Of a stretch of 40,161 nt of DNA, positions 1 to 23,757 are shown one piece after another (positions within the stretch are counted from its first letter, which is position 1; each line of letters begins with the position of its first letter). Below the pieces are notes generated by a model. That model searched no databases and was not told the origin of the DNA. It was given only the letters and a program-made list of their open reading frames with translations. A program made the position numbers and the translations under genes. Location of the stretch: NCBI GenBank assembly GCA_030141605.1, contig JAQGDQ010001457.1:1-40161 (forward strand). The letters run 5' to 3'. Source of the stretch: Tubiluchus corallicola (taxonomy: Eukaryota; Priapulida; Priapulimorpha; Priapulimorphida; Tubiluchidae).

Positions 1-3000
1 GTGAGATATCAAAAATTATTATATTATATGCACGAAATTTACCCTCAAGCTCTGACGTAGGTATTACTCTTTTGTATGACAGGTGAAATTTTATTTTATC
101 TAGCAGGTCACTAAACATTGTTGGTGTCATTTGCTTGCAATTTAAAAAATCATTTGGTCGTGTCTGCTCTTAATTCTTGAAATATTTGGTAATAGCTTCC
201 TTTGTGTTTCTTCGTTGCAACCATTTTTAACACGCAACATTTTTTTATATGCCTTTGCTCTACCTTTACAGAAGCACATGTTGTGCGAACGTGACAAAGC
301 ATATTAGCTTATGCTTTCTAAATTTGAACCACGAAGCGCCATAAGTAGAGAAATCATTTACATAATTTTTGAATACTTCCTTTGGTAAAGAAAGAGGTGA
401 GGCACAGGGCAGAGCACATTCACTCAAAGAGGTGATAAGCAAAGGAAAAGACGTTTGCGCTGCCTCTGTGATTTGACATACAGGAAACATTATTATTAAC
501 ATTGCACTGTACTTCATTTTAGACTAGGAAACAAGTTGTGATCTTTACCTAAATGTTTGGAACAAATACTGTTCTTCTCAAGTAATAGTAAGCCTATGTA
601 AGCTTTATGCATGTAGCACCTGGTAACAACTGCCATTGACCAAACAGAAGAAATAGGCAACTGACTTGACACTAGAAAACAGCAAGTTTCTTCCCTCATC
701 AGCAACTTCTATAATCTGAAACAGAAAAACGGCAACTCAAACATTTTAACAATAAAATATTGGGACAAACAACTACTACTATATTTTAATTTAGTTTGAT
801 ATGACTGATTCATATTAAGTTGTAAGTGAAGTGCAAAATATTTTATTAAAAATTAACTTAACAATTGTTTAGCAAAATTAACAAAAACTCATAAAAACAT
901 GTATAACAGTTAATTAAATGTAATAACTCATTCTGTACGTATTCTGTGCTCATTCTCTACAAAAGTATGGACTTAATGTCTATTTCATTTGTAGATACAT
1001 GTAGTAACAGCTTTTCTATATTTGCTTTAAAATGACAAAGGTGGTACCTATGCAATGACACAATTAAAAAAGACACCATTTTTACAACATCTAGTAACAA
1101 CTAATTAACATTGGTGTGGAAACTGATGTTTGTGGCTGCATGGTGAAATGAAGACAGAGCACCTAGAAAGGAACAGGAAATTCATAATAAGATTTATAGA
1201 TACAGAGGTACCAGAAGGTAGAAATTCAAGGAAAGCTTATCGAAAGTTTCTTCTGGTCCTTATAATAATTGACAAACCAAAGAGGTGAGATATCAAAAAT
1301 TATTATATTATATGCACGAAATTTACCCTCAAGCTCTGACGTAGGTATTACTCTTTTGTATGACAGGTGAAATTTTATTTTATCTAGCAGGTCACTAAAC
1401 ATTGTTGGTGTCATTTGCTAATAGCTTCCTTTGTGTTTCTTCGTTGCAACCATTTTTAACACGCAACATTTTTTTATATGCCTTTGCTCTACCTTTACAG
1501 AAGCACATGTTGTGCGAACGTGACAAAGCATATTAGCTTATGCTTTCTAAATTTGAACCACGAAGCGCCATAACTAGAGAAATCATTTACATAATTTTTG
1601 AATACTTCCTTTGGTAAAGAAAGAGGTGAGGCACAGGGCAGAGCACATTCACTCAAAGAGGTGATAAATAAAGGAAAAGACGTTTGCGCTGCCTCTGTGA
1701 TTTGACATACATGAAACATCATTATTAACATTGTACTGTACTTCATTTTAGACTAGGAAACAAGTTGTGATCTTTACCTAAATGTTTGGAACAAATACTG
1801 TTCTTCTCAAGTAATAGTAAGCCTATGTGAGCTTTTTGCATGTAGCACCTGCTAACAACTGCCATTGACGAAACAGAAGAAATAGGCAACTGACTTGACG
1901 CTAGAAAACAGCAAGTTTCGTCCCTCATCAGCAACTTCTATAATCTGAAACAGAAAAACGGCAACTCAAACAACTTAACAATAAAATATTGGGACAAACA
2001 ACTACTACTATATTTTAATTTAGTTTGATATGACTGATTCATATTAAGTTGTAAGTGAAGTGCAAAATATTTTATTAAAAATTAGCTTAACTATTGTTTA
2101 GCAAAATTAACAAAAACTCATAAAAACATGTATAACAGTTAATTAAATGTAATAACTCATTCTGTACGTATTCTGTGCTCATTCTCTACAAAAGTATGGA
2201 CTTAATGTCTATTTCATTTGTAGATACATGTAGTAACAGCTTTTCTATATTTGCTTTAAAATGACAAAGGTGGTACCTATGCAATGACACAATTAAAAAA
2301 GGCACCATGTTTACAACATCTAATAACAACTAATTAACATTGGTGCAGAAACTGATGTTTGTGGCTGCATGGTGAAATGAAGACAGAGCGCCTAGAAAGG
2401 AATAGGGACTTCATAATAAGATTTATAGATACACAAGTACCAGAAGGTAGAAATTCATAGAAAGATTATAGAGAGTTTCTTCTGGTTCTTATAATAATTG
2501 AGAAACCAAAGAGGTGGGATATCAAAAATTATTATATTATATGCACGAAATTTACCCTCAAGCTCTGACGTAGGTTTTACTCTTTTGTATGACAGGTGAA
2601 ATTTTCATTTTATCTAGCAGGTCACTAAACATTGTTGGTGTCATTTGCTTGTAATTTAAAAAATCATTTGGTCGTGTCTGCTCTTAATTCTTGAAATATT
2701 TGGTAATAGCTTCCTTTTGTGTTTCTTTGTTGCAACCATTTTTAACACGCAACATTTTTTCTATGCCTTCGCTCTACCTTTACAGAAGCACACGTTGTGC
2801 AAACGTGACAAAGCATATTAGCTTATGCTTTCTAAATTTTGAACCACGAAGCACCATAACTAGAGAAGTCATTTAGCTAATTTTTGAATACTTCCTTTGG
2901 TAAAGAAAGAGGTGAGGCACAGGGCAGAACACATTCACTCAAAGAGGTGATAAGTAAAGAAAAAGACGTTTGCGCTGCCTCTGTGATTTGACATACAGGA

Positions 3001-3843
3001 AACATTATTATTAACATTGCACTGTACTTCATTTTAGACTAGGAAACAAGTTGTGATTTCTACTTAAATGTTTGGAACAAATACTGTTTTTCTCAAGTAA
3101 TAGTAAGCCTATGTGAGGTTTATGCATGTAGCACCTGCTAACAACTGCCATTGACAAAACAGAAGAAATAGGCAACTGACTTGATGCTAGAAAACAGCAA
3201 GTTTCTTCCCTCATCAGCAACTTCTATAATCTGAAACAGAAAAACGGCAACTCAAACAACTTAACAATAAAATATTGGGACAAACAACTACTACTATATT
3301 TTAATTTAGTTTGATATGACTGATTCATATTAAGTTGTAAGTGAAGTGCAAAATATTTTATTAAAAATTAACTTAACTATTGTTTAGCAAAATTAACAAA
3401 AACTCATAAAAACATGTATAACAGTTAATTACATGTAATAACTCATTCTGTACGTATTCTGTGCTCATTCTCTACAAAAGTATGGACTTAATGTCTATTT
3501 CATTTGTAGATACATGTAGTAACAGCTTTTCTATATTTGCTTTAAAATGACAAAGGTGGTACCAATGCAATGACACAATTTAGAAAGACACCATGTTTAC
3601 AACATCTAATAACATCTAATTAACTTTGGTGCGGAAACTGATGTTTGTGGCTGCATGGTGAAATTAAGACGGAGCGCCTAGAAAGGAATAGGGAATTCAT
3701 AATAAGATTTATAGATACACAGGTACCAGAAGGTAGAAATTCAAGGAAATCTGATCGAATGTTTCTTCTGGTCCTTATAATAATTGACAAACCAAAGAGG
3801 TGAGATATCAAAAATTATTATATTATATGCACTAAATTTACCC

Positions 3844-4035
3844 TCAAGTGCTGACGTAGGTATTACTCTTTTGTATGACAGGTGAAATTTTCATTTTATC
3901 TAGCAGGTCGCTAAACATTGTTGGTGTCATTTGCTTGTAATTTAAAAAATTCATTTGGTCGTGTCTGCTCTCAATTCTTGAAATATTTGGTAATACCTTC
4001 CTTTTGTGTTTCTTCGTTGCAACAATTTTTAACAC
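3844..4035 (-). pseudogene. PIF/Harbinger nuclease N-terminal fragment (copy four)
   Basis: A 63-residue open frame contains a pattern N-Y-K-Q-M-T-P-T-M-F-S-D-L-L-D-K-M followed by P-V-I-Q-K-S-N-T. HARBI1-type nucleases carry a comparable block, F-x-x-[RK]-[MV]-T-P-x-x-F-x-x-L, followed by a P-x-I-x-K-x-[DN]-T element, ahead of their catalytic domain. A basic stretch (KKHKRK) lies upstream, as expected for that region. No DDE catalytic part is found in the unit, so this is an exon-sized relic that was amplified with the repeat. The assignment rests on motif resemblance only; a chance open frame is the alternative. Confidence 0.4.
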
Positions 4036-4814
4036 GCAAAATTTTTTTTCTATGCCTTCTCTCTACCTTTACAGAAGCACATGTTGTGTGAACTTGGCAA
4101 AGCATATTAGCTTATGCTTTCTAAATTTTGAATCACGAAGTGCCATAACTAGAGAAATCATTTACCTAATTTTTGAATACTTCCTTTGGTAAAGAAAGAG
4201 GTGAGGCACAGGGCAGAACACATTCACTCAAAGAAGTGACAAGTAAAGAAAAAGACGTTTGCGCTGCCTCTGTGATTTGACACACAGGAAACATTATTAT
4301 TAACATTGTACTGTACTCAATTTAAGACAAGGAAACAAGTTGTGATTTCTACTTAAATGTTTGGAACAAATACTGTTCTTCTCAAGTAATAGTAAGCCTA
4401 TGTGAGGTTTTTTGCATGTAGCACCTGCTATCAACTGCCATTGACGAAACAGAAGAAATAGGCAACTGACTTGACACTAGAAAACAGCAAGTTTTTTTCC
4501 CTCATCAGCAACTTCTATAATCTGAAACAGAAAAACGGCAACTCAAACATCTTAACAATAAAATATTGGGACAAACAACTACTACTATATTTTAATTTAG
4601 TTTGAAATGACTGATTCATATTAAGTTGTAAGTGAAGTGCAAAATATTTTATTAAAAATTAACTTAACAATTGTTTAGCAAAATTAACAACAACTCATAA
4701 AAACATGTATAACAGTTCATTACATATAATAACTCATTCGGTATGTATTTTGTGCTCATTCTCTACAAAAGTATGGACTTACTGTCTATTTCATTTGTAG
4801 ATAAATGTAGTAAC

Positions 4815-5233
4815 TGTACTACATTTAAACTCCAGAACATCAAATGTTTAACATGCAGCAATTGTCGTTTCATCTGTAATAATAAATTACAGCAATAAGT
4901 TTTCAATGAAAAAGATAAGTTTGATAAAGGTACATTACGAAATTAGCTAACGTGATTATCGTCTATAATTGTACAAAAAAATGACAGCTAAATTGTTCTA
5001 ATAGCATAAAGTAGTTCAATAAACATAATTAGACACTTACATGTGGTCTCCCTGAGTTTTGGCACTTATAACTTGCAAGAAAAAACAATAAGAAATCAAC
5101 AACAACATTCACATCATATCAATTGAATTGCATGTCAGGTAATGTCTACCTGGCCAACTACCTGGTCACATGACTGATGACAGTTAAAAGGGCAAGACTA
5201 CATTTAATAGGTAGGGAAACGTGTATGTGCTTA
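4815..5233 (-). mobile_element. Solo LTR of the BEL/Pao element in unit four
   Basis: This 419-bp stretch matches the two LTRs of the full BEL element. It differs from the left LTR (6491-6912) at two visible positions and lacks the terminal three bases (aca) at its right end. It begins after the same unit sequence (gtagtaac) as the full element in unit five. It replaces about 31 bp of the unit, which resumes at ggtggtacc. No target-site duplication flanks it. A normal solo LTR formed by LTR-LTR recombination would keep the duplication, so a deletion or a rearrangement within the tandem array is implied. Confidence 0.9.
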
Positions 5234-5521
5234 GGTGGTACCTATGCAATGACACAATTAAAAAAGACACCATGTTTACAACATCTAATAACAACTAATT
5301 AACATTGGTGTTTAAATTGATGTTTGTTTCTGCATGGTGAAATGAAGACGAAGTGCCTAGAAAGAATAGGGAATTCATAATAAGATTTATAGATACACAG
5401 GTACCAGAAGGTAGAAATTCATAGAAAGCTTATAGAGAGTTTCTTCTGGTCCTTATAATAATTGACAAACCAAAGAAGTGGGATATCAAAAATTATTATA
5501 TTATATGCACGAAATTTACCC

Positions 5522-5782
5522 TCAAGCGCTGACGTTGGTATTACTCTTTTGTATGACAGGTGAAATTTTCATTTTATCTAGCAGGTCGCTAAACATTGTT
5601 GGTGTCATTTGCTTGTAATTTAGAAAAATCATTTGGTCGTGTCTGCTCTTAATTCTTGAAATATTTGGTAATAGCTTCCTTTTGTGTTTCTTCGTTGCAA
5701 GCATTTTTAACACGCAACATTTTTTTCTTTGCCTTCGCTCTACCTTTACTGAAGCACATGTTGTGCGAACGTGACAAAGCAT
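5522..5782 (-). pseudogene. PIF/Harbinger nuclease N-terminal fragment (copy five)
   Basis: An 86-residue open frame is the longest of the five versions of this fragment. It has a basic region (KKHKRK), then N-Y-K-Q-M-T-P-T-M-F-S-D-L-L-D-K-M and P-V-I-Q-K-S-N-T. The equivalent stretch in copy three (about 2558-2760) is similar. Copies one and two share a 1-bp deletion just after the D-L-L-D-K block that changes the frame, and copy two has also lost about 55 bp inside the fragment. The rest of a Harbinger transposase is missing, so the fragment cannot encode a working enzyme. Identification is by family motif resemblance. Confidence 0.4.
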
Positions 5783-6490
5783 ATTAGCTTATGCTTTCTA
5801 AATTTTGAACCACGAAGCACCATAACTAGAGAAGTCATTTAGCTAATTTTTGAATACTTCCTTTGGTAAAGAAAGAGGTGAGGCACAGGGCAGAACACAT
5901 TCACTCAAAGAGGTGATAAGTAAAGAAAAAGACGTTTGCGCTGCCTCTGTGATTTGACATACAGGAAACATTATTATTAACATTGCACTGTACTTCATTT
6001 TAGACTAGGAAACAAGTTGTGATTTCTACTTAAATGTTCGGAACAAATACTGTTCTTCTCAAGTAATAGTAAGCCTATGTGAGGTTTTTTGCATGTAGCA
6101 CCTGCTAACAACTGCCATTGACAAAACAGAAGAAATAGGCAACTGACTTGACACTAGAAAACAGCAAGTTTCTTCCCTCATCAGCAACTTCTATAATCTG
6201 AAACAGAAAAACGGCAACTCAAACATCTTAACAATAAAATATTGGGACAAACAACTACTACTATATTTTAATTTAGTTTGAAATGACTGATTCATATTAA
6301 GTTGTAAGTGAAGTGCAAAATATTTTATTAAAAATTAACTTAACAATTGTTTGGCAAAATTAACAACAACTCATAAAAACATGTATAACAGTTCATTACA
6401 TGTAATAACTCATTCTGTACGTATTCTGTGCTCATTCTCTACAAAAGTATGGACTTACTGTCTATATCATTTGTAGATAAATGTAGTAAC

Positions 6491-6912
6491 TGTACTACAT
6501 TTAAACTCCAGAACATCAAATGTTTAACATGCAGCAATTGTCGTTTTATCTGTAATAATAAATTACAGCAATAAGTTTTCAATGAAAAAGATAAGTTTGA
6601 TAAAGGTACATTACGAAATTAGCTAACGTGATTATCGTCTATAATTGTACAAAAAAATGACAGCTAAATTGTTCTAATAGCATAAAGTAGTTCAATAAAC
6701 ATAATTAGACACTTACATGTGGTCTCCCTGAGTTTTGGCACTTATAACTTGCAAGAAAAAACAATAAGAAATCAACAACAACATTCACATCATATCAATT
6801 GAATTGCATGTCAGGTAATGTCTACCTGGCCAACTACCTGGTCACATGACTGATGACAGTTAAAAGGGCAAGACCACATTTAATAGGTAGGGAAACGTGT
6901 ATGTGCTTAACA
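6491..6912 (-). repeat. 3' LTR of BEL/Pao element
   Basis: In element orientation it starts TGTTAAGC directly after a purine-rich tract and ends GTAGTACA, giving the TG...CA ends typical of LTRs. It is identical to 13810-14231 except for three substitutions, near 6546, 6864 and 6874. On its outer (left) side is unit five of the 1.28-kb array. Confidence 0.95.
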
Positions 6913-6962: not shown

Positions 6963-8594
6963 TCACACGTTCATCATCTGACCTTCAATGAAACACAACT
7001 TGTGTATAGGACGTTTAAGAAACCCCTCTTTGGTTTTCAAGGTGACACTCCTCACCAGACCATCCTTACTGACGTGGGTTTTTACAACACGTCCAAGCAG
7101 CCAACAATTTCTTGGAGTTGTATCCATAATTAGAACAACGTCATCCTCCTTGAGATTCTGTTTTTCTTTGTGCCATTTTGAACGTTGTTGGAGCATCGGC
7201 AAATACTCTAATTTCCAGCGATTCCAAAATACATTAGAAAGATATTGTATCTGTCGCCACTTTTTCATATAAACACCTCCTGCAGAAAACTGACCCAGTG
7301 GAAGTATTGGAGGAGCACTTCCGCCCATCAGAAGGAAGTGGTTAGGTGTTAAAGAATCATAATCATTCGGATCATCAGACGCTGTGGTCAGAGGTCTTGT
7401 ATTGACTATGTTCTCGACAATACAGAATAAGGTGCTCAAACCCTCATCATCAAGTACCTGCTCTTGAGCCACTGAGTGCAGAACTTTTTTAACACTTTTA
7501 ATTAGTGCTTCCCAAGCTCCTCCCATATGAGATGCCCGAGGAAGACAAAAGTCCCAATCAATATGTTTCTGAAGTAAGTTTTCCGTGACAACGTTGGTGT
7601 TCCAAGATTCTACAGACTTTTGGAGCTCTTTGTCTGCTCCCAAAAAATTACTTCCACAATCAGACATTAGTTTGTCAGGTTTACCTCTTCTGGAGCAAAA
7701 CCTATCTAGTGCTTTTATGAACGAATCAGTTGTCATCGTGAACAAAACTTCAAGATGGATGCGTCTGCTAGCCATACATGTGAAAAGGATGCCGTAACGT
7801 TTTACTTCTGAGCGACCACGTTTTACCATAATTGGACCAAAGCAATCAGTACCCACAGTAGCAAACACTCCAGAGCTTTGCAATCTGTCTACAGGCAAGT
7901 CAGCCATCTTCTGGTGTAGTGGAATTGCCCTATTCAGTCTACATTGTCTGCACTCAGCTAAAAGCTTGCGTACCATGCCACGCATTCCAATAATCCAAAA
8001 CTTCTGGCGGATCAAAGACATTACATGCTGTTTGCCGACATGTCCATGCGTGGTGTGGAAATCTTGGATGACTAAACGTGATAATTTATGTCCTTTTGGT
8101 AAAACAATTGGATGCCTCACATTATAGTTGACATCAGCACGCCTTATTCGGCCACCTACACGAATAAGTTGCTTTTCACATAGGAATGGATCAAGTTTCA
8201 CCAGACAACTAGACTTAATAACGTTCTGACTAGTGCTTAAGTCTTTATATTCTTTCGGCAAACTCTCTTTCTGCACATACTTGATTATTTCTTCTTCGGC
8301 ATAGTCGAGTTCTGCAACAGTCAGTTTATTTGGAAAACTCGAAGTCTTTTTGGCAACTTTGTTCTTTAGCACTGTTTTGAACCGAAGAAACCATGCAACA
8401 CTTTTCTTCAACTTGTAGAATGAAGAATAACGATCCATCAAATCATTTATGATAATATGCTGTCGCTGTGTGTCATCCATTGTCGTCGCTGTTATTGTAT
8501 TAACAACTGGAGAGTGCTTCACTTCTTTGTCACCTTGTAATAAATCCTTCTGTGTAGTCATATCAATTCGAGGCCAATCATCTTCTGGAAGCAT
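6963..8594 (-). pseudogene. pol: BEL pol segment: integrase and DUF5641
   Basis: The last pol segment, with no upstream start of its own; its frame is open back to about 8715, where it meets the RNase H segment through a -1 frame change. In order it has an H2C2-type zinc-binding region (H-x-x-H-G-H and C-R-Q-C), then an integrase core with the acidic triad: D in V-G-T-D-C-F (7845-7847), D in M-S-D-C-G-S-N-F (7659-7661) and E in G-G-A-W-E-A-L (7509-7511). The C-terminal part (Y-L-S-N-V-F-W-N-R-W to L-K-R-P-I-H-K-L) is the DUF5641 domain that ends many BEL polyproteins. It would insert the cDNA into the host genome. The stop is TGA at 6963-6965. All three catalytic acids are present; only the upstream frame break prevents fusion to the rest of pol. 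Confidence 0.93.
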
Positions 8595-8647
8595 CAGGAA
8601 TCTAGGTCCGAATTTCCAGCGTTTCGACTCTAACAGTGCATAAGCAT

Positions 8648-9280
8648 TTAGTCCTCGAGATAGGTCGTCAGCTGCATTTTCCTCAGAAGGGACATATCTC
8701 CATTGCTCTGTGAGACCTCTAGAATGCTTGTGACCCTCTTCTGCACGAAGGTATGAAAGCGCTTGACAGTATTTCGTATGTAGTGCAAGATAATTAGACT
8801 ATCCGTCCAAAATATTGACCTGTCAATGTGGATGGTAAGCTCTTTCCGTAGCACCTTTTCAAGTTTAGCTGCAAGAGCTGCTGCACATAACTCCAGGCGA
8901 GGAATAGTCAGTCCTTTCATCGGAGTTAGCCTTGATTTCGCAATGACAAATGCAGTGTGGATAACGTTGAGCTCATTCTGCTGACGAATGAACACTACCA
9001 CACCATAAGCACTTTCAGAAGCGTCACAAAAATAATGAAGCTCTGTGGATATCACCTTACCAAACTCACGAGGCATGAATGATCTCTCAATCTTGAAATC
9101 TGTTAACAGTGTGCTTTCGTCTTTCCATTGTTTCCATTTCTTCTCAATGGCGCCGTCCAACTTGCTATCCCACGTTTTGTCTGGTAAACGACATTCTTCT
9201 TGAAACAGTTTCTTTCCTTGCAGAACAAATGGGCCACACATTCCAAGGGGATCATAGATACTGGAAAGAGAACTAAGCAA
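8648..9280 (-). pseudogene. pol: BEL pol segment: RNase H region (Pao 'A17' domain)
   Basis: Begins in frame with the conserved S-S-L-S-S-I-Y-D-P-L-G block that follows the reverse transcriptase palm in BEL/Pao elements (family label Peptidase_A17, although it spans the RNase H). RNase H acids are visible: D in Y-F-C-D-A-S-E-S-A-Y-G, E in P-R-L-E-L-C-A-A and D in F-W-T-D-S. It would remove RNA from the RNA-DNA hybrid. It is out of frame with the RT segment upstream (break at 9295-9315) and with the integrase segment downstream (break at 8701-8720). After the second break the reading runs to a chance stop at 8648, so its true homology ends near 8715. Confidence 0.9.
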
Positions 9281-10308
9281 TCCACGCTTTGTATTGGGAT
9301 GCTCCTTTTGTTTACATGGACGCCTAGCGTATCAGCCTCCATCTGCCAACTTATCCCCAAGGCACGCTCATTCGGCAGTGTGTCATGTGACAAGTTTAGA
9401 TCTTTAACACCTTTTCCCCTATCTTCAATTGGGATAGTGTCGAGAACACGTTTATCATTTGACATCCATTTCGTCAAACAAAATCCACCCTTCTGCAAAA
9501 GCAGCTTTAGCTGAGTAATTAGCTTCAATGCTTGCTCTACATTTTCGACTGACTTTAGGCAGTCATCCACATAAAAATTGTAAAGCACAGTTGCTACCGT
9601 TTCTTTATCAAAGCTGTATTGGTAGTCCAATGCAGTGCGTTTCAAGGCAAATGACGCCGCACTGGGGGACCAAGCCCCTCCAAAAAGGTGCACGGTCATT
9701 CTAAGTATCTGAAGAGGCTGGTCAATTCGTCCCTCAGGCCACCAAATGAACCTCAGCATATCTCTATGCTTGGGCGAAACAAACACTTGGTGATACATCT
9801 CACGTATATCTGCTAGCACGGCAACTGGATACTGCCTAAATCGCAAGAGGACACCAACCAAATTATTCGTAAGGTCAGGACCTTGCAAAGCCAATTTGTT
9901 CAGTGAGATACCTTCGCACTCTGCACCGCAATCAAAAACAATACGGGTTTTATCTGGTTTATTTTCGTTAAAGACTGGGAAGTGAGGAAGATACCAAGTC
10001 AGATGTGTAGGAGTACTTGCTGATTGTTCTTCCACTAGCTCTGCATGACCCTTGTTTAGCAAATCGTTGATTCCGTCAGTGTACTTTTGATGAAGAATGG
10101 GATTCTTGGTGAATTTTCTTCTGAGTCCATTGAGCCGTTTTGCTGCCATCTGAAAGCTATCAGGAATAACATTATGTTTGCCTTTAAATGGTATTTCTAA
10201 CTCATAGTGGCCGTCTCTTCTGGTTATTGAGCTTTCCCAAATATCGATGACCATCATCTCTTCTCTAGAATACTGCTCATCATCCAAACAGAATCTATTT
10301 TCCAACAT
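9103..10308 (-). pseudogene. pol: BEL pol segment: reverse transcriptase
   Basis: Carries the reverse transcriptase fingers and palm. The first catalytic aspartate is in V-A-V-L-A-D-I-R-E-M-Y and the paired aspartates are in F-Y-V-D-D-C-L (9562-9573). Conserved BEL blocks around L-R-F-I-W-W and H-L-F-G-G-A-W-S-P-S are intact. It would copy the element RNA into DNA. True homology runs from about 10290 to 9310. Upstream it joins the gag-protease frame through a -1 change; downstream the reading passes another -1 change at 9295-9315, after which its last ~65 codons are out of frame. The ATG at 10308 is not a biological start. Confidence 0.93.
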
Positions 10309-13300
10309 CTCTCGACTTGCTGCTGCAAGACATCTGTTTTGGCTTCAGAAGACTCTTTGACCAGAACATAATTATTTACTGACACGTTGTGTACTTTGCT
10401 GCCCGCTATAGGCCCATTCAACGTCCACCCCAGCTTCGTCTTAACAGCATAAGGAGCGTTTACAGGACCACGTCTAACTTGCAGAGGGGCCAAGGCATCA
10501 GGTACGTCAAGACCGATTAGTAAGCTTAGGTCTTCATCTTGTCCGTGATACTCAACTAAAGATGACGCTATCTCTTTCAAGTGCGGCCATTTTTGAACAT
10601 CTGCGACTGATGCCAAGCATTCTGTATCTAGCATCAGTGACTGTCGAACAAAAACATGAGGCAACATGATTCTGTTTTCACCAATGCTGTCCGTAACAAC
10701 GAAACTTGTAACTAAAGTGTCTGCTTTACTTTGGCGTTTCTCGATTGTGGTTAGGGTAAGAACATCCTCTTTTCCTTCAGCACTTATGCTGTCAAACAGC
10801 TTCCTGGAACAAAACGTGTTTGTAGATCCAGGATCTAACAAAGCCATGGCTTCAACTGGCTTTCTTCCATGTACATGTACTTGAACTTTGACCATAGGCA
10901 ATGCTATCCTCTTTCCTTTAGAACTGCCCCTATTTGCACAGCTTGTAGCTTCAGTCTCGTCTTTTCTTTGCTGCTCATCCCTGGCAAGCCTATTAACATC
11001 TGAAGAAGAACTGCTCAGCCTTCCCACTGCATCGTGCAATAAAGCTGAATGCTTCTTGTTGCATTCATTAACACTACAAGACGGTTTGAAACATCTAGCT
11101 GCTCTATGTTTTCCTTTCGCCAAACAATTAAAGCAGAGGCGTTCCTTACGCACGAACATCAACTTAGCTGGGGTGTCCATAGCTGCAAAAGCTTCACACT
11201 GTCCAAGAGAAGAATGCTCATTTGAGCTGCAAAATATGCAAACTTTCTTGCAAAATTGGGCGCTTTTGGTTTGCGGCTTTTCTTGATTTGCTTTCGCCTT
11301 GCCATTGTTTGCTTGAACTTGAGGTGCTTTAGCAGAGGTGGCATAATTTTTGGCAGAGATGCTTCGTTTAGGTTTTTCCCAATCGCCGAGGCTACCATAC
11401 ACAGGGTGGTTCATTTTTTCAGCATTTTCCTGAATGAATGTTAGCAAATCATAAATACATGGGTTTCTGATTTCATGTTTTCCTATCCTGGACACCACGT
11501 CTTTCCATTTATCATGGAATTTGTATGGCAGTTTTTTAACAATCTGAACGAGACTTGTCTGTGTATTAATTTCGCTGAGATTATTCATTGCTTTCAACGT
11601 CTCGACACAGCTTAAAAGCAAGTCAGCAAATTCTCGCAGCTTCTCGTTGTCATTGGCCTTGATTTGGTCAAACTCGATTATTTTTGACATCCAAGCCTGA
11701 GTAACCATAAACGAAGAGCCGAACCTGTCGATGAGTAACTGCTTTGCATGCTTGTATGCTCGACTGGGGTCCATGTAGCTACAACTTTCCACAACTTTTT
11801 TGGCTTTTCCAGTGCAAAATTGCATTAATCTCTGAAACCTTGCAGCCTCATCTTGTGTGTAGCTCTCGACGTTGGCTTCAAAACGTCGCATGAATTGCCA
11901 AAAGTTTAGAACGTTACCATCAAATTTGTCCAACTCCGCTATTGGAAGTTGCATTGCTTTGTACATGTTGGTATGTTGACGTTGTGCTTCAAGCATGATG
12001 TTCATAATCATAGCCATGTCATTGCTCTGTGGATGGCATTGATTAGGCATGTCGCTTAAATTATCAGTACAAATGGTAGGTTGAGTAGAATTAAAGGCAT
12101 AACTATTCTCGCGCGGTATATTACTGCCATGCGCTAGTGGAATAAAAGCAGACGCTGATGCATTCAGACACTGATTTCCAGAACTTGGATGCTGCATAGG
12201 CAAACGAATATTTTTGTTTTCCAGCAGTGGCCTAACGTCAGTATCAAAGATCTGTATCCACTTGTTCATTATGTCGAATTCATAACCTTTTTTGCCAACA
12301 GGTGGCGCCACGTGAGCTGTATGCGAATCGTGTTCAATATAGTGCCATGGTTTATGTTGACCTAAAAAATGAGCAATTTTTACATTTTTCCCAAATTGCA
12401 TTAAAGCTGGTAAATATTCGTACCGACCCTGAATGACAGCATTATAAGTGAATGGCAAATGTTTTTCATAACTAGTTGACCAGTCTTTAAAAAACTGATT
12501 CAATAATCCTTGGTCCCCACCATCAAAAGTACAGGATTCTGATTTAGCATACAACATTAACTTATTATACATATCAATACTTGGTTTGTAAACAAACACA
12601 CCAGAGTTAAAGCAATCTGGCCAGCCTACATCAGGGGCAGCTGAAAGCCCTTTAAATCTAAACATGTCATCAACATTATCTAATACAATTGTATCAGAAT
12701 CTACAAATACACATTTGCTAAATTGTGTCAACCTCCAACAATGTAGCTTAGTAAAACTCACATTAAGTTCTGGTCTTCCTAACAATTGTAACCTTTTAAA
12801 CTCATGACTATCAATAATACTGACATGTTCAACCAAATCAAATGCATTTCTCAAAAGTGTCATAATATCACAAGAAATACCCTCTGTTACCATGATGACT
12901 AAGCATCTCATTGTTCCTGTGCGACGCAAACTAGAAGCAAGAACAAGTGCTCCCAACGCATACTTATCAGTAGTTGCTAAAGTAACAAAGGCCTCAGACA
13001 AGTAATTCTCATCGCTTTCGCGTGTAGTTTGTGTATGTTTAATTGTCGGATCCGTGTATGTTGACCTTGACCTTAGCCATGCTTTGACCTTTGAGTCTGA
13101 TGTTCCATGGTCCACTAACCTGGTCCCAACATCAGCTGCAGAACCAAAGCTGTCTTCATCACGTTCATCTTCAGAACTACACTCATTCTGCATGCGTTCA
13201 TGTCGTATTCTCATCGCTTGGAGTTTGAGTTCTTGTTCTTTAATCATGAGCTCTTGGTTTCTTAGCTTGGCACTCTTCTTCGATGACGTCACACTCGAGG

Positions 13301-13550
13301 ATTTGGTGGACTTTTCGCTCCTACGTTTCTCTTGCATGGGTTGGTCAGTTGCTATTGAGGGTGGCGATAAATCAGCTGATTCATCTGGAGCGCCTGGTAT
13401 ACAAGGACCGGTTTCCTGTTGCTTCAAAATTCGTTGCACTAAATTTGCCTTGTTGCCAGAAACCGACAAAGACATACTACGAAGAATTTGCCTCAGCTCC
13501 TCAACTACTTTATTTTCCAGTTCGCTTTTAGTGAATAACACTGATGCCAT
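10254..13550 (-). CDS. gag-pro: BEL Gag-glycogenin(GT8)-protease fusion polyprotein
   Basis: The start is taken as the ATG at 13550; an in-frame GTG six bases upstream is less likely. Residues counted from that ATG: 8-45 SAP-like motif; about 91-120 charged coiled coil; 184-448 complete glycogenin-type GT8 domain; about 535-700 DUF1759 gag/capsid region; two zinc knuckles, the second starting C-F-N-C at 806; aspartic protease with L-L-D-P-G-S-T (Asp906, the usual Ser after Asp replaced by Pro); then the protease-RT linker. The frame is open for about 1098 codons with no intron or stop, so the GT8 part is read as one polyprotein with Gag. The frame leaves pol near 10290 and stops at 10254. No slippery heptamer is visible there, so a mutation or sequence error is more likely than programmed frameshifting. 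Confidence 0.93.
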   Translation of the reverse strand: MASVLFTKSELENKVVEELRQILRSMSLSVSGNKANLVQRILKQQETGPCIPGAPDESADLSPPSIATDQPMQEKRRSEKSTKSSSVTSSKKSAKLRNQELMIKEQELKLQAMRIRHERMQNECSSEDERDEDSFGSAADVGTRLVDHGTSDSKVKAWLRSRSTYTDPTIKHTQTTRESDENYLSEAFVTLATTDKYALGALVLASSLRRTGTMRCLVIMVTEGISCDIMTLLRNAFDLVEHVSIIDSHEFKRLQLLGRPELNVSFTKLHCWRLTQFSKCVFVDSDTIVLDNVDDMFRFKGLSAAPDVGWPDCFNSGVFVYKPSIDMYNKLMLYAKSESCTFDGGDQGLLNQFFKDWSTSYEKHLPFTYNAVIQGRYEYLPALMQFGKNVKIAHFLGQHKPWHYIEHDSHTAHVAPPVGKKGYEFDIMNKWIQIFDTDVRPLLENKNIRLPMQHPSSGNQCLNASASAFIPLAHGSNIPRENSYAFNSTQPTICTDNLSDMPNQCHPQSNDMAMIMNIMLEAQRQHTNMYKAMQLPIAELDKFDGNVLNFWQFMRRFEANVESYTQDEAARFQRLMQFCTGKAKKVVESCSYMDPSRAYKHAKQLLIDRFGSSFMVTQAWMSKIIEFDQIKANDNEKLREFADLLLSCVETLKAMNNLSEINTQTSLVQIVKKLPYKFHDKWKDVVSRIGKHEIRNPCIYDLLTFIQENAEKMNHPVYGSLGDWEKPKRSISAKNYATSAKAPQVQANNGKAKANQEKPQTKSAQFCKKVCIFCSSNEHSSLGQCEAFAAMDTPAKLMFVRKERLCFNCLAKGKHRAARCFKPSCSVNECNKKHSALLHDAVGRLSSSSSDVNRLARDEQQRKDETEATSCANRGSSKGKRIALPMVKVQVHVHGRKPVEAMALLDPGSTNTFCSRKLFDSISAEGKEDVLTLTTIEKRQSKADTLVTSFVVTDSIGENRIMLPHVFVRQSLMLDTECLASVADVQKWPHLKEIASSLVEYHGQDEDLSLLIGLDVPDALAPLQVRRGPVNAPYAVKTKLGWTLNGPIAGSKVHNVSVNNYVLVKESSEAKTDVLQQQVERCWKIDSVWMMSSILEKR
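12206..13001 (-). other. Embedded glycogenin GT8 domain within gag
   Basis: Glycogenin is a Mn-dependent UDP-glucose glucosyltransferase that glucosylates its own tyrosine to prime glycogen synthesis. The domain spans residues 184-448 of the polyprotein and aligns almost without gaps to the animal glycogenin catalytic domain. Visible matches: A-F-V-T-L-A-T near the start; T-K-L-H-C-W (Lys268); DxD as D-S-D (284, 286; codons 12693-12701); S-A-A-P-D-x-G-W-P-D-C-F-N-S-G-V-F; F-D-G-G-D-Q-G (343, 346); R-Y-E-Y-L-P-A (Tyr377 at the autoglucosylation position, codon 12420-12422); H-F-L-G-x-x-K-P-W (His394, Lys400). The C-terminal glycogen-synthase-binding motif of host glycogenin is absent. Hand-counted G+C is 180/540 (33 percent) over 12361-12900, against 153/360 (42 percent) in two sampled gag blocks. 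Confidence 0.95.
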
Positions 13551-13809: not shown

Positions 13810-14231
13810 TGTACTACATTTAAACTCCAGAACATCAAATGTTTAACATGCAGCAATTGTCGTTTTTTCTGTAATAATAAATTACAGCAATAAGTTTTCA
13901 ATGAAAAAGATAAGTTTGATAAAGGTACATTACGAAATTAGCTAACGTGATTATCGTCTATAATTGTACAAAAAAATGACAGCTAAATTGTTCTAATAGC
14001 ATAAAGTAGTTCAATAAACATAATTAGACACTTACATGTGGTCTCCCTGAGTTTTGGCACTTATAACTTGCAAGAAAAAACAATAAGAAATCAACAACAA
14101 CATTCACATCATATCAATTGAATTGCATGTCAGGTAATGTCTACCTGGCCAACTACCTGGTCACATGACTGATGACAGTTAAAGGGGCAAGACCAAATTT
14201 AATAGGTAGGGAAACGTGTATGTGCTTAACA
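13810..14231 (-). repeat. 5' LTR of BEL/Pao element
   Basis: Partner of the LTR at 6491-6912, with the same length and ends. Its outer (right) flank is the first 79-bp repeat, not the 1.28-kb unit that flanks the left LTR. It would hold the element promoter; no convincing TATA box was picked out inside it in element orientation. Confidence 0.95.
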
Positions 14232-14547
14232 CTGCGGGATGGGAAAGCCACGCATCTGTCCTTCAACAAGTGCATGAGTTGGAAACTAGGTTGAATAGGT
14301 ACTGTAAGTACTGCAGGATGGGAAAGCCATGCATCTGTCCATCAACAAGTGCATAAGTTGGAAACTAGGTTGAATAGGTACTGTAAGTACTGCAGGATGG
14401 GAAAGCCACGCATCTGTCCTACAACAAGTGCATAAGTTGGAAACTAGGTTGAATAGGTACTGTAAGTACTGCAGGATGGGAAAGCCATGCATCTGTCCAT
14501 CAACAAGTGCATAAGTTGGAAACTAGGTTGAATAGGTACTGTAAGTA
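14232..14547. repeat. Four 79-bp tandem repeats
   Basis: Copies start at 14232, 14311, 14390 and 14469, exactly 79 bp apart and over 95 percent alike; a fragment of a fifth begins at 14548. The BEL 5' LTR abuts the first copy. Short minus-strand open frames across it are periodic and not coding. Confidence 0.93.
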
Positions 14548-14969
14548 CTGCAATGTAGACAGGAACAATGAAAATGAGCTTAAAGAATTTTTCAAAATTG
14601 TAACACTTTTTTATGGTTTTGCACAAATTAGTGTGATTTCTTATTCATAAAGTCTCGAAATATTATAACAAGTTTCAGTTTGGATTTTCGGAATTACAGG
14701 GTCTGTTATACATCAAAAGATTTATAATTAAGCATCTCTTTTGTGCAAGAGCAGCACCTCTTAAAAGATTTGCTTTTCTGTGTTTTGCGTTATCAAAATA
14801 ATTTTGCCAAATGTTATCATACCAACTTTGCGGTCGTAGAACAGGTCTAATTAGGCTAACCTTACACGCTCAACGATATGAAAAGCTTTGAAACAGCACA
14901 GGTTTTAGTGATTCGTAGAGTGAAGAAATAAAATTTTTTCCCAAAAAATACAGAAAAAATTCCGAAGAA
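14548..14969. other. AT-rich interval, no gene seen
   Basis: No open frame of note, no tRNA-like or repeat structure recognised. Confidence 0.6.
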
Positions 14970-17900
14970 AATCTATTGTCAGTTATTGCTGAGATTAAGT
15001 TATTAAAATATCTTTTTTTCTTGAAGTTTGTAATGACTCTGCGCTAAACTAGTACAGCTAAACGAATCAGCTTAGCGCGATCTTTGCGCAGTTTTTGCGC
15101 GATCTTTGCGCAGTTTTTGCGCAATCTTTGCACAGTTTTTGCGCAATCTTTATGCAGTTTTTGCGCGATATTTGCACAGTTTTTGCGCGATCCTTTGCAC
15201 AGTTTTTGCGCAGTTTTTGCGCAATCTTTGCGCAGTTTTTGCACGATCTTTGCGCAGTTTTTGCCCGATCTTTGCACAGTTTTTGCGCGATCTTTGCACA
15301 GTTTTTGCGCAGTATTTGCGCAATCTTTCCGCAGTTTTTGCGAGATCTTTGCGCAGTTTTTGCGCAATCTAGCGCAATTTTTTGCGGGATCTTTGCGCAG
15401 TTTTTGCGCAATCTAGCGCAATTGTTGCGCGATGTTTGCACAGTTTTTGCGTGATCTTTGCACAGTTTTTGCGCGATGTTTGCACAGTTTTTGCGCGATG
15501 TTTGCACAGTTTTTGCGCGATCTTTACCCAGTTTTTGCGGGAGTTCTTGACGGAAAATTTCTATTGTCAGTTATTGCTGAGATTAAGTTATTAAAATATC
15601 TTTTTTTCTTGAAGTTTGTAATGACTCTGCGCTAAACTAGTACAGCTAAACGAATCAGCTTTGCGCGATCTTTGCGCAGTTTTTGCGCGATCTTTGCGCA
15701 GTTTTTGCGGGATCTTTGCACAGTTTTTGCGCAATCTTTATGCAGTTTTTGCGCGATATTTGCACAGTTTTTGCGCGATCTTGCGCAGTTTTTGCGCAAT
15801 CTTTGCGCAGTTTTTGCTCGATCTTTGCGCAGTTTTTGCCCGATCTTTGCACAGTTTTTGCGCGATCTTTGCACAGTTTTTGCGCAGTATTTGCGCAATC
15901 TTTGCACAGTTTTTGCGCAGTTTTTGCGGGATCTTTGCGCAGTTTTTGCGCAATCTAGCGCAATTTTTGCGCGTTGTTTGCACAGTTTTTGCGTGATCTT
16001 TGCACAGTTTTTGCGCGATGTTTGCACAGTTTTTGCGCGATCTTTACCCAGTTTTTGCGGGAGTTCTTGACGGAAAATTTCTAGTGAGTGTGAACGTTGG
16101 GCAGAGCTAAACAGTTGCTAAATGTACCGTCTGGCATTTCACCATGACAAATTCCTGTCGCTTTGATAGGAATCATATCCTTGAAGTTTGTTATGACTGC
16201 GCTAAACTAGTACAGCTAAACGAATCAGCTTTGCGCGATCTTTGCGCAGTTTTTGCGCAATCTTTGCGCAGTTTTTGCGCAATCTTTGCACAGTTTTTGC
16301 GCAATCTTTATGCAGTTTTTGCGCGATATTTGCACAGTTTTTGCGCGATCCTTTGCACAGTTTTTGCACAGTTTTTGCGCGATCTTGCGCAGTTTTTGCG
16401 CAATCTTTGCGCAGTTTTTGCGGGATCTTTGCGCAGTTTTTGTGCAATCTAGCGCAATTTTTGCGCGATGTTTGCACAGTTTTTGCGTGATCTTTGCACA
16501 GTTTTTGCGCGATGTTTGCACAGTTTTTGCGCGATGTTTGCACAGTTTTTGCGCGATCTTTACCCAGTTTTTGCGGGAGTTCTTGCGGAATTTCTTTGTA
16601 GTTATTGCTGGATTGTTATTAAATTTTTTTTCTTGAAGTTTGTAATGACTCTGTGCTAAACTGTCAGCTAAACGTCAGCTTAGCGTGATCTTTGCGCAGT
16701 TTTGCGCGATCTTTCGCAGTTTTGCGCAGTTTTTGCGCGATCTTTGCACAGTTTTTGCGCGATCTTTTTGCAGTTTTTGCGATCTTTGCACAGTTTTTGC
16801 GCGATCTTTGCACAGTTTTTGCGCGATCTTTGCGCAGTTTTTGCGCAATCTTTGTGCAGTTTTTGCGCGATCTTTGCACAGTTTTTGCACAATCTTTTTG
16901 CAGTTTTTGCGCAATCTTTGCACAGTTTTTGCGAGACCTTTGCACAGTTTTTGCGCGATCTTTGCAGTTTTTGCGCGATCTTTGCACAGTTTTTGCGCGA
17001 TCTTTGCGCAGTTTTTGCGCGATCTTTGTGCAGTTTTTGCGCGATCTTTGCACAGTTTTTGCGTGATCTTTGCACAGTTTTTGCGCGATCTTTGCACAGT
17101 TTTTGCGCGATGTTTGCACAGTTTTTGCGCGATCTTTACCCAGTTTTTGCGGGAGTTCTTGACGGAAAATTTCTATTGTCAGTTATTGCTGAGATTAAGT
17201 TATTAAAATATCTTTTTTCTTGAAGTTTGTAATGACTCTGCGCTAAATGATCTTTGCGCAGTTTTTGCGGATCTTTGCAGTTTTGTGCGATTTTGCGCAG
17301 TTTTGCGCAATCTTTGCACAGTTTTGGGTTTTTGGGTTTTGGTTTTGGGTTTTGGTTTGTTTTGGTTTGTTTTTGCACGATCTTTGCGCAGTTTTTGCCC
17401 GATCTTTGCATTTTGCGCGATCTTTACAGTTTTGCGCGAGTATTTGCGCAATCTTTGCGGTTTTTGACTCTTTGCGCAGTTTTTGCGCAATCTTTGCACA
17501 GTTTTTGCGGGATCTTTGCGCAGTTTTTGCGCAATCTAGCGCAATTTTGCGCGATGTTTACTGTTTTTGCGTGATCTTTGCACAGTTTTTGCGCGATGTT
17601 TGCACAGTTTTTGTGCGATCTTCCAGTTTTGCGGGAGTTCTTGACGGAAAATTTCTAGTGAGTGTGAACGTTGGGCAGAGCTAAACAGTTGCTAAATGTA
17701 CCGTCTGGATTTCACCATGACAAATTCCTGTCGCTTTGATAGGAATCATATCCTTGAAGTTTGTAATGACTCTGCGCTAAACTAATACAGCTAAACGAAT
17801 CAGCTTAGCGCAATCTTTGCGCAGTTTTTGCGCGATCTTTGCGCAGTTTTTGCGCGATCTTTGCGCAGTTTTTGCGCAATCTTTGTGCAGTTTTTGCGCA

Positions 17901-19378
17901 ATCTTTGCACAGTTTTTGCGCGATCTTTGCACAGTTTTTGCGCAATCTTTGCGCAGTTTTTGCGCAGTTTTTGCGCGATCTTTGCACAGTTTTTGCGCGA
18001 TCTTTGCGCAGTTTTTGCTCGATCTTTGCAGTTTTTGCGCGATCTTTGCACAGTTTTTGCGCAGTATTTGCGCAATCTTTGCACAGTTTTTGCGCACTCT
18101 TTGCGCAGTTTTTGCGCAATCTTTGCACAGTTTTTGCGGGATCTTTGCGCAGTTTTTGCGAAATCTTTGCGCAATTTTTGCGCGATGTTTGCACAGTTTT
18201 TGCGTGATCTTTGCACAGTTTTTGCGCGATGTTTGCACAGTTTTTGCGCGATCTTTGCCCAGTTTTTGCGGGAGTTCTTGACGGAAAATTTCTAGTGAGT
18301 GTGAACGTTGGGCAGAGCTAAACAGTTGCTAAATGTACCGTCTGGCATTTCACCATGACAAATTCCTGTCGCTTTGATAGGAATCATATCCTTGAAGTTT
18401 GTTATGACTGCGCTAAACTAGTACAGCTAAACGAACCAGCTTTGGGCGATCGTTGCACAGTTTTTGCGCGATCTTTGCACAGTTTTGGCGCAATCTTTAT
18501 GCAGTTTTTGCGCGATCCTTGCACAATTTTTGCGCAATCTTTGCACAGTTTTTGCGCGATCTTTGCACAGTTTTTGCGCAGTTTTTGCGCGATCTTTGTG
18601 CAGTTTTTGCGCGATCTTTGCACAGTTTTTGCGCGATCTTTGCACAGTTTTTGCACAGTTTGTGCACGATCTTTGTGCAGTTTTTGCGCGATCTTTGCAC
18701 AGTTTTTGCGCGATCTTTGCACAGTTTTTGCGCGATCTTTGCGCAGTTTTTGCGGGATCTTTGCGCGATCTTTGCGCAGTTTTTGCGGGATCTTTGCGCG
18801 ATATTTGCGCAGTTTTTGCGCAATCTTTGTGCAGTTTTTGCGTGATCTTTGTGCAGTTTTTGCGCGATCTTTGCACAGTTTTTGCGCGATCTTTTTGCGC
18901 AGTTTTTTGCGCGATCTTTCCACAATTTTTGCGCAAGCTTTGCACAGTTTTTGCGCGATCTTTTTGCACAGTTTTTGCGCTGTTTTTGCGCAATCTTTGC
19001 GCAGTTTTTGCGCGATCTTCGCACAGTTTTTGCGCAGTTTTTGCGTGATCTTTGTGCAGTTTTTGCGCGATCTTTGCACAGTTTTTGCGCGATCTTTGCA
19101 CAGTTTTTGCGCAGTTTTTGCGTGATCTTTGTGCAGTTTTTGCGCGATCTTTGCACAGTTTTTGCGCGATCTTTGCACAGTTTTTGCGCGATCTTTGCGC
19201 AGTTTTTGCGCGATCTTTGCACAATTTTTGCTCAATCTTTACGCAGTTTTTGCGGGAGTTCTTGATGGAAAATTTCTAGTGAGTGTGAACGTTGGGCAGA
19301 GCTAAACAGTTGCTAAACGTACCATCTGGCATTTCACCATGACAAATTCCTATCGCTTTCATAGGAATCATATCCTTG
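14970..19378. repeat. Composite higher-order array of a 22-bp minisatellite
   Basis: The basic unit is two related 11-mers, TTTGCGCAGTT and TTTGCGCGATC. Seven blocks (about 15073-15545, 15660-16062, 16229-16577, 16682-17152, 17247-17636, 17806-18274, 18442-19255) are separated by spacers. Each block ends in gcgggagttcttgacgg or a near variant. Spacers are of two kinds: A (14970-15072, 15546-15659, a shortened one at 16578-16681, 17153-17246) and B (16063-16228, 17637-17805, 18275-18441, truncated 19256-19378). A and B share their first ~25 bp, and both run into a related ~60-bp right end in all complete copies. Open frames of up to ~280 codons in several frames are a consequence of a stop-free unit whose length is not a multiple of three. 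Confidence 0.95.
17325..17372 (+). repeat. G/T-rich tract inside minisatellite block five
   Basis: A run alternating GGG or GG with TTTT, for example gggttttggttttggg, interrupts the 22-bp repeat. It could fold into a two-layer G-quadruplex. It probably arose by slippage from the gtttttg part of the unit. Confidence 0.8.
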
Positions 19379-21120: not shown

Positions 21121-21596
21121 TGTGAAATTTGCTGAACCTTCAAAAAGAGGTATTATTATTATTATCAGCTTATCAATCGTTATTAAATTCCAGACAGAAT
21201 TATAAAGGATTAAAATCTTTCTTTGTCGGCAGGGAGTTAACCTACCACTCAGGTAAATACTTCAAAAGGATTATAAATAAGCTGCTCCTTTGTGTGCAGA
21301 GAGCGCGTCTCAAGTTGTCTCCAATTTAATGTTTTGCGGAATTTGCCGCAAAGTTTATAAACTTCAAAAGTCGGTGTTATTATTTCAGCCCTTATTAAAT
21401 TTCAGATAAAATTGCTGAAAGTTATAATCTTTCTTTGTGCGCAGGGCGTGAACTGAATCTCGAGTGAAATGCTTTAGAAGACTTTAATAACCATCGGGCT
21501 AGGGTTAGAGCAGCAATCATGATTGGTCTGCAATTTGTCATTTTAGAAAATCTGCCGCCAGGATTATAAATTTTAAATGTAAATTCCAAGTTCTTG
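21121..21596. repeat. Two diverged copies of a ~220-bp repeat
   Basis: Copies at about 21135-21330 and 21358-21520 share an aacttcaaaa-type start, ttattaaatt(c)cag, ataatctttctttgt, gcaggg(a/c)gt and a later gaaat-ctt pattern. No coding signal. Confidence 0.6.
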
Positions 21597-23757
21597 CAGG
21601 ATCTTTGCACAGTTTTTGCGCGATTTTACGCAGTTTTTGCGCAATCTTTGCACAGTTTTTGCGCAATCTTTGCACATTTTTTTGCGTGGTCTTTGCACAT
21701 TTTTTGCGCGATCTTTGCGCAGTTTTTGCAGGATCTTTGCGCATTTTTTGCGCAATCTTTGCGCAGTTTTTGCGCGATATTTGCACAGTTTTTGCGCGAT
21801 CTTTTTGGGCAGTTTTTGCGCGATATTTGAGCAGTTTTTGCGCGATCTTTGCGCAGTTTTTGCGCGATTTTTGCACAGTTTTTGCGCGATCTTTGCGTAG
21901 TTTTTGCCCAATCTTTGCGCAGTTTTTGCCCAATCTTTGCACAGTTTTTGCGCAATCTTTGCACAGTTTTTGCACAATCTTTGCACATTTTTTTGCGCGA
22001 TCTTTGCACAGTTTTTGCAGGATCTTTGAGCAGTTTTTGCGAGATATTTGCGCATTTTTTGCGCAATCTTTGCGCAGTTTTTGCGCGATCTTTGCACAGT
22101 TTTTGCGCGAACTTTGCACAGTTTTTGCGGGATCTTTGCGCAGTTTTTGCGGGATCTTTGCACAGTTTTTGCGTGGTCTTTGCACATTTTTTGCGCGATC
22201 TTTGCGCAGTTTTTGCAGGATCTTTGCGCATTTTTTGCGCAATCTTTGCGCAGTTTTTGCGCGATATTTGCACAGTTTTTGCGCGATCTTTTTGGGCAGT
22301 TTTTGCGCGATATTTGAGCAGTTTTTGCGCGATCTTTGCGCAGTTTTTGCGCGATTTTTGCACAGTTTTTGCGCGATCTTTGCGTAGTTTTTGCCCAATC
22401 TTTGCGCAGTTTTTGCCCAATCTTTGCACAGTTTTTGCGCAATCTTTGCACAGTTTTTGCACAATCTTTGCACATTTTTTTGCGCGATCTTTGCACAGTT
22501 TTTGCAGGATCTTTGAGCAGTTTTTGCGAGATATTTGCGCATTTTTTGCGCAATCTTTGCGCAGTTTTTGCGCGATCTTTGCACAGTCTTTGCGCGATCT
22601 TTGCACAGTTTTTGCGCGATATTTGCACAGTTTTTGGCTAATCTTTGCACAGTTTTTGTCCAATCTTTGCACAGTTTTTGCGCAATCTTTGCACAGTTTT
22701 TGTCCAATCTTTGCACAGTTTTTGCGCAATCTTTGCACAGTTTTTGCGCAATCTTTGCACATTTTTTTGCGCGATCTTTGCACAGTTTGTGCGCAGTTTT
22801 TGGGGGATCTTTGGGCAGTTTTTGCGCGATCTTTGCGCAGTTTTTGCCCAATCTTTGCACAGTTTTTGCGCAATCTTTGCACAGTTTTTGCGCAATCTTT
22901 GCACATTTTTTGCGTGTCTTTGCACATTTTTTGCGCGATCTTTGCGCAGTTTTTGCGGGATCTTTGCGCAGTTTTTGCGCAATCTTTGCGCAGTTTTTGT
23001 GCGATCTTTGCACAGTTTTTGCGCGATCTTTGCACAGTTTTTGCGCGATCTTTGCGCAGTTTTAGCGCGATCTTTGCGCAGTTTTTGCCCAATCTTTGCA
23101 CAGTTTTTGCGCAATCTTTGCACATTTTTTTGCGCGATCTTTGCACAGTTTTTGCGCAGTTTTTGCCCAATCTTTGCACAGTTTTTGCGCAATCTTTGCA
23201 CAGTTTTTGCGCAATCTTTGCACAGTTTTTTGCGCGATCTTTGCACAGTTTTTGCGCAATCTTTGCACATTTTTTTGCGCTGTCTTTGCACATTTTTTGC
23301 GCGATCTTTGCGCAGTTTTCGCGGGATCTTTGCGCAGTTTTTGCGCGATCTTTGCGCAGTTGTTGCGCGATCTTTGCACAGTTTTTGCGCGATCTTTGCA
23401 CAGTTTTTGCGCGATCTTTGCACAGTTTTTGCGCGATCTTTGCGCAGTTTTTGCCCAATCTTTGCGCAGTTTTTGCGCAATCTGTGCACAGTTTTTTGCG
23501 CGATCTTTGCACAGTTTTTGCGCAATCTTTGCACATTTTTTTGCGCTGTCTTTGCACATTTTTTTTTTGCGCGATCTTTGCGCAGTTTTCGCGGGATCTT
23601 TGCGCAGTTTTTGGCTAATCTTTGCGCAGTTTTTGCTCAATCTTTGCGCAGTTTTTGCGCGATCTTTGCACAGTTTTTGCGCGATCTTTGCACAGTTTTT
23701 GCGTAGTTTTTGCGTGATCTTTGCACAGTTTTTGCGCAATCTTTGTGCAGTTTTTTT
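21597..23757. repeat. Second 22-bp minisatellite array
   Basis: About 98 copies of the same TTTGCGCAGTT/TTTGCGCGATC unit as in the composite array, in the same orientation, without the A or B spacers. Variants not seen in the first array include cattttttt in place of cagttttt and ttgcccaatc. A ~417-bp block is duplicated inside it (21684-22100 and 22171-22587, offset 487 bp). Open frames over 500 codons long cross it in several frames on both strands and are repeat artefacts. Confidence 0.95.

Follow-up and report, generated by a model that had tools for sequence, protein, structure and literature searches.

The window, a 40,161-nucleotide stretch from the priapulid Tubiluchus corallicola, contains on its minus strand a BEL/Pao LTR retrotransposon whose Gag carries a glycogenin (GT8) domain. 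The two LTRs are recent, with 3 differences in 422 columns, and the Gag-protease ORF runs from a first methionine at 13550 to a stop codon ending at 10254, in exact agreement with the coordinates of an earlier note. Using Pfam, phmmer and alignment, we recovered in this frame, uninterrupted by a stop, the whole series that the earlier note had read there: SAP, GT8/glycogenin, DUF1759, zinc knuckles and a protease-like region. The features of the element are as follows.

13810..14231, minus strand: 5' LTR of the element, compared with 6491-6912
10254..13550, minus strand: Gag-protease ORF of 1098 aa, from methionine to stop codon and free of internal stops
13422..13505, minus strand: SAP domain, residues 20-47 (Pfam PF02037, E 8.5e-9)
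13173..13310, minus strand: charged stretch resembling a coiled coil (assessed by eye), residues 85-130
13074..13091, minus strand: KVKAWL (KVxxW motif) upstream of GT8, residues 158-163
12216..13004, minus strand: glycogenin (GT8) catalytic domain, residues 187-449 (Pfam and phmmer)
12138..12167, minus strand: LNASASAFIP (LNxxAxxFxP-like motif) after GT8, residues 466-475
11496..11924, minus strand: DUF1759, Gag capsid-like region, residues 547-689 (Pfam PF03564, E 3.1e-9, above cut-off)
11034..11240, minus strand: Cys/His zinc-knuckle region, residues 775-843 (alignment with other BEL Gags)
10287..10904, minus strand: aspartic-protease-like region with ALLDPGS (alignment to database BEL polyproteins)
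6963..10344, minus strand: pol, three reading frames in the window copy, with RT region, Peptidase_A17, H2C2 integrase and DUF5641
6491..6912, minus strand: 3' LTR

The pol region matched PF05380 (Peptidase_A17, E 1.4e-46), PF18701 (DUF5641, E 1.9e-30) and PF17921 (H2C2, E 1.4e-11), and its RT region scored 17.8 bits with PF00078, under the cut-off of 29.6; no match was found when a pol piece was searched in phage records. Since certain other copies keep a single open frame of 2028-2217 aa, the end of the ORF at 10254 is a peculiarity of the window copy. The predicted model of the DUF1759 region was closest to the PNMA2 capsid (8uyo; Foldseek E 3.2e-3, probability 1.00) and also matched dArc1, with no match at or below 0.001. 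No variation was seen in the zinc-knuckle Cys/His columns between the window Gag and six other BEL Gags. The usual protease motif is D[ST]G, in place of which the window copy has DPG (ALLDPGS, 10824-10844); DPG was found in 19 of 27 GT8 loci and in three Gags lacking GT8 (L064, L066 and L068), the other GT8 loci having DNG (L021/L024), DGG (L025), DLG (L023) or, in four cases, no match to the pattern.

By eye, we found neither a target-site duplication (the flanks, gtaac and ctgcg, differ) nor a primer-binding site for the window element. A four-copy 79-bp array starts exactly at the 5' LTR end (14231-14552), so a later rearrangement may lie behind the missing duplication. Other repeats of the window are a 22-bp unit (GCGCGATCTTTGCGCAGTTTTT and variants) in long arrays open in many frames (15075-19254 and 21589-23703), a 75-bp unit in about 50 copies with 91% matches (27206-30918) and, adjoining the 3' LTR at 184-6468, a unit repeated five times at a spacing of 1.2-1.7 kb, with parts up to 98% alike.

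Most of this layout is shared with other BEL/Pao elements. A coiled-coil-like stretch, DUF1759, zinc knuckles and protease were likewise present in the database elements P0001-P0007 and in four elements of this genome (L064-L066 and L068), and a pol with Peptidase_A17, H2C2 integrase and DUF5641 is common to the window and its database relatives. Unlike the window family, however, all of these elements lack GT8. SAP occurred in the GT8 Gags and in L068, but not in L064 or L066; P0001-P0007 carry no Pfam label for it, and the stretch of L065 examined does not reach the N-terminus.

Copies of the GT8-bearing Gag

The whole Gag frame matched at least 55 stretches of the same assembly (343.5 Mb). 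The close copies, at 92-99% identity, are the window, seven others (L002-L008) and a fragment on contig C1835, and many further stretches matched the window frame at 36-53% identity (one short stretch at 64%). The GT8 piece alone gave 95 matches in 68 clusters; removing three, on two contigs and representing split host-type genes, left 65, some of them weak and putative as elements.

We compared 28 loci: the window, the seven close copies and 20 diverged stretches (L009-L028). GT8 was found in 28/28, among loci picked for matching the Gag, many via GT8 itself; the diverged ones were drawn from the whole-frame match list, and matches limited to the part after GT8 were mostly omitted at first. 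The GT8-bearing Gag is thus a retrotransposon family and not one odd copy. A single chimeric assembly join, with GT8 missing from all other copies, had been named in the earlier note as an alternative; it is ruled out by the seven close copies and 20 diverged stretches that carry GT8 on other contigs.

The 20 diverged loci were 47-61% identical to the window in GT8 and 45-67% in DUF1759, and the linker was 17-48% identical (19 loci). No stop interrupted GT8 in 17 of the 20 near-complete copies (more than 240 aligned GT8 residues). For SAP, the window, L004, L010 and L015 passed the Pfam cut-off; L011 and L014 scored under it. KVxxW preceded GT8 in 21 of the 23 loci with inspected flanks (L025 has SVENW, and L023 was unreadable in that frame), and an LNxxAxxFxP-like motif followed it wherever the frame was readable, in a loose form in L010, L015, L021 and L026 (judged by eye). 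GT8 therefore occupies the same Gag site, in the same frame, across several Gag subfamilies. As far as sequence comparison can show, it has mostly been inherited with the element since its capture.

Origin of the GT8 domain

The domain is clearly of glycogenin type: the translation matched Pfam GT8 (E 8.2e-15) as well as DUF1759, as the earlier note had anticipated, and residues 187-449 matched glycogenin-1 by phmmer (E 1.2e-82). The resident glycogenin locus of this genome (contig C2137) matched in five separated pieces, whose gaps are introns, whereas the element domain is continuous and sits in frame and intronless inside the Gag-protease ORF. Spliced RNA is therefore the likely source, which supports the earlier suggestion of a captured host mRNA; GT8 was probably captured through a spliced animal glycogenin RNA. 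Identity to this resident glycogenin was 49-59% for seven element representatives and 59-66% for six glycogenins from elsewhere. Since the element domains are further from the resident gene than other glycogenins are, the capture is either old or from another donor, and the host's own gene is ruled out as a recent source. A second host glycogenin-like gene, in pieces on opposite strands and about 47-64% identical to animal glycogenins, was seen in L060 (contig C2318, 606-2567).

The site of insertion can also be recognized in Gags without the domain. In L064 and L066, a similar KVxxW / LNxxAxxFxP motif pair lies close together, and the GT8 part had no match in six elements chosen as GT8-less (L062-L067). 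Among 150 DUF1759 matches scored in the genome, at least nine had a GT8 match just upstream, a lower bound because the GT8 lineage gets low scores from the DUF1759 family model; many BEL elements of this genome thus lack GT8.

One of the GT8-less Gags bears on the number of captures. L068 (contig C1776) combines SAP and a coiled-coil-like stretch with protease and a DUF1759 region (23.0 bits, short of the 25.4 cut-off) in one open Gag frame (818 aa in the stretch examined, 947 aa in the genome search). In the Gag tree, built on DUF1759 plus protease, it was sister to GT8-bearing L021/L024 (100/99), and a single GT8 clade was rejected (AU p 0.00036; 7.5e-6 with the shortened copy L069 included). 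A single GT8 clade had been seen in the Gag tree before L068 was included and was overturned on its addition. L069, which falls inside the L011/L014 subfamily and has no match upstream of residue 548, was left out of the final Gag tree; L062, with a very long branch, was in the earlier Gag tree and was left out of those with L068; L063 and L067 were in no tree, and the partial P0002 was unused.

GT8 was therefore either lost once, in L068, or gained twice. Two captures, one in the main lineage and one in that of L021/L024, would fit both the position of L068 and the GT8 tree, where 16 of 18 element rows formed one clade (98/94) and L021/L024 were placed apart. We nevertheless regard two captures as unlikely: the L021/L024 branch is long, a single origin of all 18 rows was not rejected (AU p 0.39), and both lineages carry the domain at one and the same place in Gag, preceded by KVxxW and followed by an NPxAxxxxP-like motif (by eye). 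This common insertion site appears to favour a single capture followed by loss in L068. Since L068 does without it, GT8 is dispensable and not essential to every member.

Active site and selection

The Gag GT8 has the glycogenin fold, the DxD motif, the catalytic lysine and aspartate and the priming tyrosine of glycogenin. Tyr195 and the Asp pair of glycogenin are named in titles of matched records, and residues are numbered here as in glycogenin. The following sites were placed by alignment.

12747..12749, minus strand: lysine equivalent to K86 of glycogenin-1
12693..12701, minus strand: DSD, the DxD motif (D102/D104)
12513..12515, minus strand: aspartate equivalent to D163 (GGDQG)
12420..12422, minus strand: Tyr381, equivalent to the self-glucosylated Tyr195 of glycogenin
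12351..12353, minus strand: lysine equivalent to K218

Equivalents of D104 and N133 were kept in all 28 loci, those of Tyr195, D102, D160, D163, Q164, K86, G215 and K218 in 27 each, Y197 in 26 and H212 in 25, and the exceptions fell mostly in copies with frame breaks. In contrast to animal glycogenin (GYG1/GYG2), the element GT8 is Gag-fused and intronless, and a glycogen-synthase-binding motif was not found in 27/27 loci within up to 360 bases past the GT8 match. Motif scores there were 19-30, against shuffle means of 22.5-24.6 for the same loci; six of seven control glycogenins scored 92-120 and the seventh, P0302, 24.

To assess selection, we compared seven representatives of different subfamilies (21 pairs, not independent of each other). 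For GT8, pS was 0.67-0.95, which is saturated, and pN 0.24-0.37, compared with a pN of 0.21-0.43 for DUF1759 (the L026 row resting on 47 residues) and 0.31-0.47 for protease (15 pairs). GT8 thus changed at about the rate of the DUF1759 capsid region, and its pN was mostly lower than that of protease. Saturated synonymous sites together with low pN indicate that the long-term signal on GT8 is purifying selection. Within six subfamilies, GT8 dN/dS was 0.20, 0.32, 0.60, 0.66, 0.28 and 0.43, never below the corresponding DUF1759 values of 0.17, 0.22, 0.12, 0.54, 0.28 and 0.25; recent copies, some of them dead, look slightly more relaxed in GT8.

These data bear on two further explanations. The first, that GT8 is a neutral passenger or an assembly artefact, could appeal to the origin of the evidence in one genome and to the many broken copies, but is scarcely credible given its presence on many contigs, in several subfamilies with open frames, with saturated synonymous sites and low pN. 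The second is that GT8 serves Gag as a binding or dimer-forming module, for sugar or UDP-sugar binding or attachment to glycogen, with catalysis unimportant. Glycogenin is a dimer and GT8 adjoins the coiled-coil-like stretch, as such a module might; yet a mere scaffold would tolerate change at the equivalents of DxD, K86, D160, D163 and K218, which 27-28 of the 28 loci retain. We consider this module improbable, although part of the active-site conservation could reflect constraint on the fold.

Proposed function and relation to captured enzymes

From selection and the active site, we infer that an old BEL/Pao lineage with a captured glycogenin probably retains, on balance, a functional UDP-glucose transferase with Gag as its acceptor. 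The lineage would have taken up a spliced animal glycogenin message and retained only the catalytic domain, inserted at one Gag site, with the coiled-coil/KVxxW segment before it and the LNxxAxxFxP-DUF1759 capsid segment after it. On Gag assembly, GT8 domains of adjacent molecules would then meet much as they do in the glycogenin dimer, and such crowding in the particle would favour transfer between neighbours, adding short alpha-glucose chains to Gag at Tyr381 or nearby. In glycogenin, a C-terminal motif recruits glycogen synthase (PMC9287172). Since the catalytic domain and tyrosine are kept and the synthase-binding tail was not found, the Gag domain points to glucosylation without glycogen building, with chains that would stay short.

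A more specific version, in which the capsid protein primes a short glucan on itself, is tentative, at somewhat less than even chances. Glucosylated particles might gain solubility, escape host sensors, or bind to glycogen or glucan-binding proteins, and a sugar-coated particle may perhaps be shielded or ride in glycogen-rich germ cells. The mimivirus protein R707 is related to glycogenin and has DxD and the same tyrosine, yet this viral enzyme acts on other acceptors and does not glucosylate itself (PMC9614988). The conserved tyrosine is therefore no proof of self-glucosylation. By analogy, the Gag enzyme might act on another protein or a free sugar, and selection on GT8 is silent on the acceptor. 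Such a target seems rather unlikely, because 27 of 28 loci keep the priming tyrosine and 26 the tyrosine two positions further, and another acceptor would not obviously need these residues, a point weakened by R707 having kept its tyrosine too.

R707 differs from the Gag GT8 in being 26% identical to glycogenin-1 and belonging to a giant DNA virus, and the part of PMC9614988 that was available does not describe it within a structural polyprotein. Captured host enzymes have been described in LTR elements as additional reading frames (PMC9289625 and PMC5408684). Orchid Gypsy elements likewise captured a host enzyme, an AlkB m6A demethylase active in vitro, but as an additional ORF in Ty3/Gypsy (PMC9289625), and animal LTR elements of bdelloids carry a GDSL esterase or DEDDy exonuclease, again different enzymes, in a third ORF rather than within Gag (PMC5408684). 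In a set of 5.8 billion proteins, no protein with GT8 and DUF1759 was found among the best 120 of 146 matches (lengths about 606-1928 aa; only the 7981 candidates sharing most words were scored) or among the best 120 of 374 (about 876-2786 aa). Fusion was judged by precomputed Pfam labels (P0135 is unlabelled), and any fusion should rank among the first protein matches. None of the titles listed in searches of the open-licence literature pointed to a retrotransposon glycogenin. Within these protein and literature searches, this would be the first retroelement using the glycogen-priming reaction.

The GT8 Gag represents a metabolic enzyme within a structural polyprotein, kept under selection through several subfamilies, and one genome offers a natural contrast between GT8 Gags and a SAP-bearing relative without GT8, so that function is testable. 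If the enzyme is active, retroelement particle assembly would be linked to glucose metabolism, Gag would be glycosylated by the element's own enzyme, and the particles may coat themselves with sugar.
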